Positions 1,039 through 11,200 of a DNA stretch of 36,091 nucleotides are shown here, piece by piece. Made by a program: the position numbers and the translations under genes. A model generated the notes under the pieces. The model saw nothing but the letters and a program-made list of their open reading frames with translations, ran no database searches and was not told where the DNA came from. How positions within the stretch are numbered: the stretch's first letter is position 1; each line of letters starts with the position of its first letter. The DNA comes from Rhodoferax sp. (GTDB taxonomy: Bacteria; Pseudomonadota; Gammaproteobacteria; Burkholderiales; Burkholderiaceae_C): positions 1-36,091 of the forward strand of contig NZ_JAABQC010000017.1 in assembly GCF_011391645.1 (NCBI RefSeq), given 5' to 3'.

Positions 1039-1743
1039 ATGATCCCCATGAAATCAGATTCAGCCTGGCGCGGCACCTCGGATTGCCGCCAATGCGGGAT
1101 TCGTGATATGGCGTTGTTTGCCGATCTCAATGAGCATGATTTTGGACTCATGCATGCGCCGATTGATGATCTGGAATACGCGCACGGGGAGACTTTGTAC
1201 GCTGAAGCCAGCCTGTCGCAGGGTATCTACACGTTGCGCAGCGGCATGGTGAAGCTGGTGCGCAGCACAGTTGATGGCCGACCGCGCATCGTGCGCGTTT
1301 TGCGCCCGGGGGATGTGATCGGGCTGGAGGCCCTGGCCGGTGCGCGTTATGACAGCGACGCTGTCGCCCTGACGCCGGTTGCGGTCTGCCGTATTCCACT
1401 CAATGTGATCCAGAAGTTGGCATCGCGCAGCCCAAGACTGCATACCCAGCTGATGTCCAAATGGCAGCGCGCCCTGAAGGACGCTGACGATTGGCTGGCG
1501 GACATGAACTTTGGCACCGCACGCCAGCGTGTGGCCAATCTGGTACTGAAAATGCGCAGCCCCAGCAACCACGAGGTGTCGGTGCTTTTTTCGCGCGAAG
1601 ACATGGGTTCCATGCTGGATCTCAAGTTTGAAACTGTCAGCCGCGAGGTCAGCCGGTTGGTGCGCGACGGCGTGATGGAGCAGCTCGACAAGCAGGGGCG
1701 CATGTACCGCGTGCTCAAGCCTGAGGCGCTGTCGGCGCCCTGA
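1039..1743 (+). CDS. Crp/Fnr-family transcriptional regulator
   Basis: A 234-residue cyclic-nucleotide-binding-like sensor domain followed by a winged helix-turn-helix. I chose ATG 1039 over the TTG at 1024 because AAGGA lies 7 bases upstream of it. The N-terminus has a CxxC pair (C16, C19) and the sensor domain has C117 in VAVCRIPL. These align with three of the four cluster cysteines of E. coli FNR (C20, C23, C122). The residue equivalent to C29 is Ala. The recognition helix reads FETVSREVSRL, keeping the ExxSR signature that reads TTGAT half-sites in FNR. A perfect TTGAT-N4-ATCAA site lies upstream of the transporter genes at 10066. A redox- or oxygen-responsive role is inference. Confidence 0.88.
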   Translation: MIPMKSDSAWRGTSDCRQCGIRDMALFADLNEHDFGLMHAPIDDLEYAHGETLYAEASLSQGIYTLRSGMVKLVRSTVDGRPRIVRVLRPGDVIGLEALAGARYDSDAVALTPVAVCRIPLNVIQKLASRSPRLHTQLMSKWQRALKDADDWLADMNFGTARQRVANLVLKMRSPSNHEVSVLFSREDMGSMLDLKFETVSREVSRLVRDGVMEQLDKQGRMYRVLKPEALSAP

Positions 1744-9388: not shown

Positions 9389-9593
9389 GGTTGGCCTTGT
9401 CGCGCCATCGCTTCGCCGCTGGCGCAGAGGATTGGCCAAATCCTGGATGACCCGGCTGTCGTTTATGCGCCACGGCTTAGCGCATTCTCGGGTCAGGGTT
9501 ATCTGGCGCACAGACCGGTGTTGACGCCATCTCTACAGTGCGATGCAACAGTTGGGCAAAGTGCCCACTGTGTCACCGCACTGGAGCTTGGCC
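9389..9593. other. Spacer after soxB
   Basis: About 205 bases with no convincing gene. Short inverted repeats around CGCCATCG/CGCTGGCG are weak and lack a U tract. No clear promoter was found. Confidence 0.35.
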
Positions 9594-9929
9594 ATGAATG
9601 CCCATTTGAAGACGATCAGCCCCTCTGCCCACAACTTGGGTGGTCAGGACGCGTTTCGATTTAATTTGCTGGTCAGGCGACCCACTTTGCTGGTGCTGCT
9701 GCGCTCGCAGGCAGCGCTCGTCGCTCTGGCGGTATTTGCCGTCTTGGCACTCATGTTGGCGTTTCATCAGGTTGTCCTTGACGCGGTGGCACGGGGAGAG
9801 TCCCTGCAGCAGGCCAGAAACCTGCAAAGTCAGTCAGTGTGGCGCTGTGACAGAGTCTCGATCCCCGCTGCGCGCGCCGATTGCTTGCGCCGGGCCAATG
9901 CCACAGTGCGAGCTGACGGAAATTCCTAA
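9594..9929 (+). CDS. Small single-pass membrane protein of unknown function
   Basis: I chose ATG 9594, which has GGAG 7 bases upstream, over the track start at 9543. The 111-residue product has one strong transmembrane segment (ALVALAVFAVLALMLAF, about residues 40-57). It is preceded by an Arg-containing cytoplasmic part (LLVRRPTLLVLLRSQ), so the C-terminus probably faces the periplasm. That tail has two cysteines 13 residues apart (WRCDRVSIPAARADCLRR) that could form a disulfide. I recognise no family. It sits between soxB and the sulfur transporter genes, so an accessory role there is possible but unproven. Confidence 0.6.
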   Translation: MNAHLKTISPSAHNLGGQDAFRFNLLVRRPTLLVLLRSQAALVALAVFAVLALMLAFHQVVLDAVARGESLQQARNLQSQSVWRCDRVSIPAARADCLRRANATVRADGNS

Positions 9930-9935
9930 TATAAG

Positions 9936-9990
9936 AATGTATTGATTTAAATCAATACATTGGCTACCGCTTAATTTTTAGAATCATGTG
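9936..9990 (+). promoter_or_regulatory. FNR-type class II promoter
   Basis: A perfect 26-bp palindrome (9936-9961) has TTGATTTAAATCAA at its centre, an exact match to the FNR consensus TTGAT-N4-ATCAA. A -10 element TAGAAT lies at 9979-9984, predicting a start near 9990. That puts the site centre about 41.5-42.5 bases upstream, the canonical class II activator position. It drives the two YeeE/YedE genes. Confidence 0.8.
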
Positions 9991-10065
9991 TGCGTGGCCC
10001 GAACTGCGCACCTAACCGGTGCCAGTGGCCACTGGCAGCAGCGTTCTTTTATAAGGCGGTCAACC

Positions 10066-10596
10066 ATGAAAACCCAATCTCCAGGCGGCAAGCGTGTCGT
10101 CAAACCCTTTTGGTCGCCGCTGGCGGCGGGTATCGCACTCGGCTTGGTGCTGATGCTGAGTTTTGTCCTTTCCGGTCATGGACTGGGTGCCAGCGGCGCG
10201 GTGATCCATGTGGTGGCTGGTGCCGGATTGGTGATGGCACCCGAGGCGACACTGGCCAACTCCTACCTCCGGCCCATGGTGTCAGAGGGTAACCCGATTG
10301 GCTCCTGGATCACCTGGGAAGTGCTGGGCTTGATCATCGGTGCGGCCATTGCAGCCTTCATGGCCGGGCGGTTTCGGGTTCAACTGGACGGTGCGCGCAG
10401 CCTGGGGTCCGGGCGGCGTCTGACCCAGGCGCTGCTCGGTGGCACGCTGGCAGGTTTCGGCGCACGCGTGGCGGGTGGCTGCACCAGCGGACTGGGGCTG
10501 TCGGGGGCTGCCGTGTTCAGCATCTCTGCCTTTGTCTTCCTTGGCGTGTTTTTTGCCACCGGCTTGCTGGTTGGCCGTTTTGTCAAAGGAGTCTGA
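10066..10596 (+). CDS. YeeE/YedE family sulfur transporter, first half
   Basis: A 176-residue membrane protein with about four to five hydrophobic segments and the family signature GGCTSGLGLSG near residue 140. Its Cys corresponds to those that relay thiosulfate in the YeeE/TsuA family. The track ORF from 9988 begins too early; ATG 10066 follows AAGGCGGT. It is followed 1 base later by a second half-size gene, the split PmpA/PmpB-like arrangement. The pair probably imports thiosulfate or related sulfur species. Position after sox and behind an FNR-type promoter suggests expression under low oxygen. Confidence 0.87.
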   Translation: MKTQSPGGKRVVKPFWSPLAAGIALGLVLMLSFVLSGHGLGASGAVIHVVAGAGLVMAPEATLANSYLRPMVSEGNPIGSWITWEVLGLIIGAAIAAFMAGRFRVQLDGARSLGSGRRLTQALLGGTLAGFGARVAGGCTSGLGLSGAAVFSISAFVFLGVFFATGLLVGRFVKGV

Positions 10597-10597
10597 C

Positions 10598-11200
10598 ATG
10601 TTTCCCCTTCATGAAAGTGGCATGGTTTCGGGTCTGGTGTGCGGTGTCCTGTTCGGTTTTGTGCTGGAAAACGCCGGCTTTGGCAGCCCGTCCAAACTCA
10701 CCGGCCAGTTCCGGTTGACCGATTGGTCGGTGTTCAAAGTCATGTTTACCGCCATTGTGGTGGCTGCGGTCGGGCTGTGGGCGATGCGCGTTGTGGGGCT
10801 CCTGGCGCCGGACATCCTTTATGTGCCGCAGGCGCTGGTGATGGCCTCGGCCGTGGGCGGCGCCTTGATCGGTGCCGGCTTCGCCATTGGCGGATATTGC
10901 CCGGGCACCTCGATGGTGGGAATGTCGTCGGGGCGTTTGGACGCGCTTGTTTTTGTGGTGGGGCTGTTCATCGGCACGACCGCCTTTGCCGGCTTTTACG
11001 GTGATGCCATTCGCTCCATGATGGCGATCGGTGAAATCATTGACGGTGACAACTTTGCTGATGTGTATGGCATTGCCGATCCCATCATGTTGGGCATGAT
11101 GGTGGCTGGTCTGGTGGCCGTTTTTTACGCGGGCTCTTGGTTCGAGCGCCGCGGCCCGGGTCCGGTGACGGCCGAGCAAGCCGTCGCCGGTGCCGAGTGA
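10598..11200 (+). CDS. YeeE/YedE family sulfur transporter, second half
   Basis: A 200-residue membrane protein starting one base after the upstream stop, with AAAGGAG 8-14 bases ahead of the ATG. It has about five hydrophobic segments and the second-half signature GGYCPGTSMVG, whose Cys pairs functionally with that of GGCTSG in the first half. A loop (GDAIRSMMAIGEIIDGDNFADVYG) separates two late helices. It ends 12 bases from the convergent cbbO stop with no evident terminator between. Substrate is inferred from family and context. Confidence 0.87.
   Translation: MFPLHESGMVSGLVCGVLFGFVLENAGFGSPSKLTGQFRLTDWSVFKVMFTAIVVAAVGLWAMRVVGLLAPDILYVPQALVMASAVGGALIGAGFAIGGYCPGTSMVGMSSGRLDALVFVVGLFIGTTAFAGFYGDAIRSMMAIGEIIDGDNFADVYGIADPIMLGMMVAGLVAVFYAGSWFERRGPGPVTAEQAVAGAE

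Follow-up and report, generated by a model that had tools for sequence, protein, structure and literature searches.

Results

Gene organization of the locus

The window, by which we mean the whole stretch of 36,091 nucleotides of Rhodoferax sp. DNA that was analyzed, carries genes for a metallo-beta-lactamase-like protein, a thioredoxin-like protein, an FNR-like regulator, a cytochrome and an ArsR-family regulator, followed by soxCDYZAXB. Beyond the sox genes lie a small ORF and then a pair of YeeE/YedE-type transporter genes, which is convergent with cbbO-cbbQ-cbbM (form II RuBisCO). The features on which the analysis turns are the following:

1039–1743, plus strand: sox-linked FNR-like regulator (FNRL), with three of the four FNR cluster cysteines and an ETVSR helix
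2281–2613, plus strand: ArsR-family regulator, BigR/SoxR-like, below the BigR equivalog cut-off
9543–9929: small ORF between soxB and the transporter pair, 41–50% identical in relatives
9928–9933, plus strand: TAATAT, at about −62 to −57
9936–9961, no strand: 26-bp perfect palindrome, AATGTATTGATTTAAATCAATACATT
9942–9955, no strand: FNR-type operator TTGATTTAAATCAA, the core of the palindrome, centered at 9948.5
9979–9984, plus strand: −10 box TAGAAT, 23 bp 3′ of the operator core
9990–9991, plus strand: transcription start predicted from the −10 box
10020–10037, plus strand: 18-bp perfect palindrome, TGCCAGTGGCCACTGGCA, in the 5′ untranslated region
10066–10596, plus strand: first YeeE/YedE-type half-transporter gene, PmpA/SoxT-like, Sulf_transp, 176 aa
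10598–11200, plus strand: second YeeE/YedE-type half-transporter gene, PmpB-like, 200 aa

Both halves of the transporter score above the Pfam PF04143 cut-off of 27 bits (85.3 and 45 bits). The pair, consisting of two half-size proteins, falls far below the cut-offs of the NCBIfam TsuA equivalog for TsuA/YeeE thiosulfate transporters; its PmpAB-like name is an assignment that we assume from size and arrangement, and the predicted substrate is a sulfur compound. The small ORF has no family match, and it was not found in the corresponding genome region of one Rhodoferax relative, L029.

A conserved, probable FNR-type promoter precedes the transporter genes

The sequence at 9936–9961 equals its own reverse complement and is the longest perfect palindrome of the window, the runner-up measuring 18 bp. 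Its core has the TTGAT-N4-ATCAA form of an FNR operator, and nowhere else in the 36 kb is TTGATNNNNATCAA matched without a mismatch. Since TAGAAT follows this core after 23 bp and the predicted start lies near 9990, the center of the operator falls at about −41.5, as judged from the −10 box. The proposal of the earlier note that an FNR box occupies the class II position relative to TAGAAT is thus borne out by the geometry.

This arrangement is conserved. We aligned six promoters, that of the window and those of five other Rhodoferax orthologues (L027, L028, L029, L030 and L032), whose proteins are 81–94% identical to those of the window. All five carry the box at the same place with no or one mismatch, and in each of them TAGAAT is unchanged and the 23-bp spacing is free of indels, so that both the −10 box and the spacing are invariant in six of six promoters. 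Among the columns of the operator and the −10 box, 14/16 are invariant as compared with 19/69 of the others (p about 1e-5, an optimistic value because the sequences share ancestry). L029 retains the unit of box and YeeE genes in spite of lacking the small ORF, and the promoter therefore belongs to the transporter.

The same alignment limits what can be said of the palindrome as a whole. The earlier note had described a perfect 26-bp palindrome, and this description is correct for the present genome but does not extend to a functional unit, as only 7/13 palindrome pairs match in the relatives and none of the six columns of the left (upstream) outer arm is conserved. The full symmetry over 26 bp is thus peculiar to this genome. 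Palindromic conservation does not reach the outer six base pairs, so that the functional element is the 14-bp core together with the −10 box, and the term “perfect 26-bp” overstates it. The unconserved left arm also ruled out the full symmetry as a conserved operator for another protein.

Two further elements flank the operator and the start. TAATAT is kept in five of the six promoters and, being located at about −60, may be a contact for the RNA polymerase alpha C-terminal domain. We also considered that the palindrome might hold a sigma-70 promoter of the minus strand, and set this aside: the conserved TAATAT sits right next to the box, and we saw no conserved gene on the minus strand that would be transcribed from it. 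In the leader, the relatives preserve the 18-bp palindrome in the form of a GTGGC...GCCAC hairpin, in which a few pairs are G-U or show compensatory changes; it may act as a hairpin in the RNA or as a further operator.

FNR-family regulators and FNR boxes in the genome

The genome encodes three candidate readers of the box. The 1039–1743 protein possesses the E-x-x-S-R recognition helix (FETVSR). In the alignment of Crp/Fnr family members linked to Rhodoferax sox clusters (1039–1743, L070–L090, L112–L120 and L125), Cys21, Cys24 and Cys122, which align to C20, C23 and C122 of FNR, are invariant, whereas all aligned relatives have another residue in place of the third N-terminal cluster cysteine. 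The protein scores 81.9 bits against the NCBIfam Fnr profile, far below the cut-off of 228 bits, and its predicted structure has a mean pLDDT of 66, which is too poor for cysteine geometry. As one of the four cluster cysteines is missing, this protein is not a canonical FNR. The nomination of this regulator in the earlier note consequently survives for an FNR-like protein with an ETVSR helix, but not for FNR itself. The cluster of Bacillus subtilis Fnr, as cited in PMC3520743, is ligated by three cysteines, with an aspartate as the fourth ligand. By analogy, the 1039–1743 regulator could hold a cluster with another fourth ligand.

A canonical FNR is encoded on contig C80. It has the C-x2-C-x5-C motif, the central cysteine and an ETISR helix, and its gene is located about 2 kb from ccoN on the same contig. 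The third paralogue, on contig C21, has an ETVSR helix and is without cluster cysteines. Over the 2.74 Mb of the genome we counted 15 perfect FNR boxes, where about 0.7 are expected from base composition, and the reversed pattern, used as a control in the same genome, gave 0 perfect sites. One of the 15 precedes ccoN, and boxes are found at about −70 of ccoN in most of the Rhodoferax loci examined. Given this excess of boxes and the four-cysteine FNR beside ccoN, the FNR regulon of this genome is real.

FNR boxes are linked to the sox-linked regulator gene

Of 31 loci with the regulator gene, 12 carry a box of at most one mismatch in the 300 bp that follow it, and shuffled sequences gave a mean of 0.33 and a maximum of 2. 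None of the 31 loci has a box upstream of this gene, and the window itself has none downstream of 1039–1743. Perfect boxes are present in 7/19 stretches with the regulator gene (plus the window) versus 0/14 stretches without it, several of the latter coming from genomes whose regulator gene lies elsewhere. In two genomes, G258 and G272, the regulator gene is directly 5′ of the YeeE pair. The perfect box that separates the two is too near a −10-like sequence and the ATG for class II activation; G201 has a similar arrangement, but its YeeE gene is divergent. This linkage between boxes and regulator gene suggests that the readers include the sox-linked regulator. Against an exclusive role, G096 (perfect) and G197 (one mismatch) have a box before YeeE without a close relative of the regulator, and seven genomes show the reverse, with the regulator and no box before YeeE.

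The boxes adjacent to the sox-linked regulator gene have an all-A/T center in 18/20 cases, as against 6/about 26 for the ccoN boxes, which usually contain G. We considered this composition as proof of different readers and found it only suggestive, each set deriving from few ancestral sites. In five loci without an orthologous YeeE pair at the sox end (L096, L098, L099, L100 and L107), the box after the regulator gene precedes the gene for a lipoprotein (LTGCGTIST...) and/or a protein of roughly 450 aa (ATNGMLMEGY...).

Discussion

In our main reading, which we hold with a probability of about 0.8, the 9936–9990 segment is the promoter of the YeeE pair at 10066–11200 and is activated in the class II manner by a predicted FNR-type reader. 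An FNR-family dimer would bind TTGATTTAAATCAA at about −41.5, and the bound dimer would recruit sigma-70 RNA polymerase to the TAGAAT −10 box; this is the probable way in which an FNR-type protein turns on the transporter pair. The conserved FNR-type box, its class II geometry and its association with a YeeE/YedE pair, found in five orthologues at fixed spacing, are the supported part of the earlier interpretation. The reader would be a protein with an E-T-x-S-R helix, most likely the 1039–1743 regulator, the canonical FNR, or both acting on one box. Induction would then track the signal of that reader, namely low oxygen if it is FNR. If the three-cysteine regulator were the main reader, the signal could be a sulfur species, or else oxygen sensed by a cluster with different ligation. 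Low-oxygen control of the transporter pair is plausible.

Which protein reads the box can be argued in several ways. Simple anaerobic activation by the canonical FNR alone is in essence what the earlier note proposed, with a different protein. The four-cysteine FNR of the genome, the Rhodoferax boxes before ccoN and the boxes before YeeE in G096 and G197 are all consistent with it, as is the anaerobic induction of Shigella yedE and its drop in an fnr mutant (PMC4229854); the clustering of boxes beside the sox-linked regulator gene and, with the reservation made above, their A/T-rich centers argue against it, and we regard it as possible with the odds leaning the other way. That clustering, together with the three invariant cysteines, the constant absence of the third N-terminal one and the retained ETVSR helix, would suit the sox-linked regulator acting alone and reporting a sulfur-related or other redox signal rather than oxygen as such. 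However, three cysteines and another ligand can hold an oxygen-labile cluster, as cited for B. subtilis Fnr in PMC3520743, and this alternative is also one that we would sooner doubt than adopt. A combined scheme, to which we give somewhat under even odds, is that the three-cysteine FNR-like regulator, which is conserved among Rhodoferax and further genera of Burkholderiaceae, recognizes TTGAT(A/T)4ATCAA and couples sulfur import to a non-oxygen or additional signal, sharing its boxes with the canonical FNR. Joint use of one box has a precedent in the Burkholderiales, since the paralogous Fnr proteins of Herbaspirillum share and divide promoters, differing at particular motif positions (PMC5934665).

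Other origins of the site are less probable. DNR-type proteins have the FNR consensus in common, and the putative nitric-oxide-type DNR/NnrR paralogue on contig C21 has the same ETVSR recognition-helix motif, but we consider it an unlikely reader. A chance AT-rich origin of the palindrome, or a role for some other protein needing the full 26-bp symmetry, is very improbable. In this genome the perfect symmetry of the outer arms is more than an FNR site requires; against this stand the conservation of the core and the −10 box without the left arm, and a number of boxes far above chance.

The proposed promoter closely resembles known class II FNR promoters. In Escherichia coli dmsA and narG, TTGAT-N4-ATCAA likewise lies about 41.5 bp before the start, over the −35 region and upstream of a sigma-70-type −10 box, and the fnr1 gene of Herbaspirillum seropedicae has a class II FNR site centered at −42 (PMC5934665). 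Here, in contrast, the genes controlled would be those of a sulfur-compound transporter pair within a sox cluster, and the reader is only predicted. A link between FNR and the YeeE/YedE family is not new, because expression of Shigella flexneri yedE rises without oxygen (log2 +1.03) and falls in an fnr mutant (−1.8 to −2.0), a dependence that is possibly indirect (PMC4229854). That yedE is a single gene for a putative permease outside any sox context, unlike the pair described here. Beyond this case, the literature that we searched, which was incomplete, yielded no paper on FNR-type control of sox/soxT genes or of sox-linked transporters.

YeeE-type transporters linked to sulfur metabolism have been described together with ArsR-family regulators. 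In Hyphomicrobium denitrificans, SoxT1A is a sulfur importer and SoxT1B acts in signaling to SoxR, an ArsR-type regulator (PMC11582611), and in Acinetobacter the yeeE-yedE-pdo2 genes are under BigR control (PMC7315123). In both systems the control is exerted by a repressor responding to sulfane sulfur or persulfide, and FNR is unmentioned (PMC11582611, PMC7315123). The earlier note had contrasted oxygen control with a cluster usually viewed as thiosulfate-induced; this applies to Hyphomicrobium soxT1A, which is induced by thiosulfate, but is too simple, as soxT1B hardly responds and pmpAB does not respond (PMC11582611).

The usual discussion of sulfur-oxidation genes centers on sulfur-sensing ArsR-type repressors, and a conserved FNR-type promoter at a sulfur importer would bring an electron-acceptor or redox input into this picture. 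Such an input fits a facultative Rhodoferax with form II RuBisCO encoded next door. More interesting as a lead than the promoter itself is the three-cysteine sox-linked regulator: FNR boxes are consistently linked to the gene for this FNR-like protein minus one cluster ligand, a case in which sulfur metabolism may have adopted a member of an oxygen-sensor family for a new role.

The locus also includes an ArsR gene, as the SoxR and BigR systems do, and its product (2281–2613) is a possible sulfur sensor of the sox genes. The AT-rich TTAATTTACATTAA at 2241–2254, directly 5′ of this gene, is a possible ArsR operator. In the YeeE promoters of more distant Burkholderiaceae (L045, L050, L051, L040 and L041), TACCCC...GGGGTA-like sequences replace the FNR boxes or stand beside them, and we take these to resemble CsoR/CstR operators.
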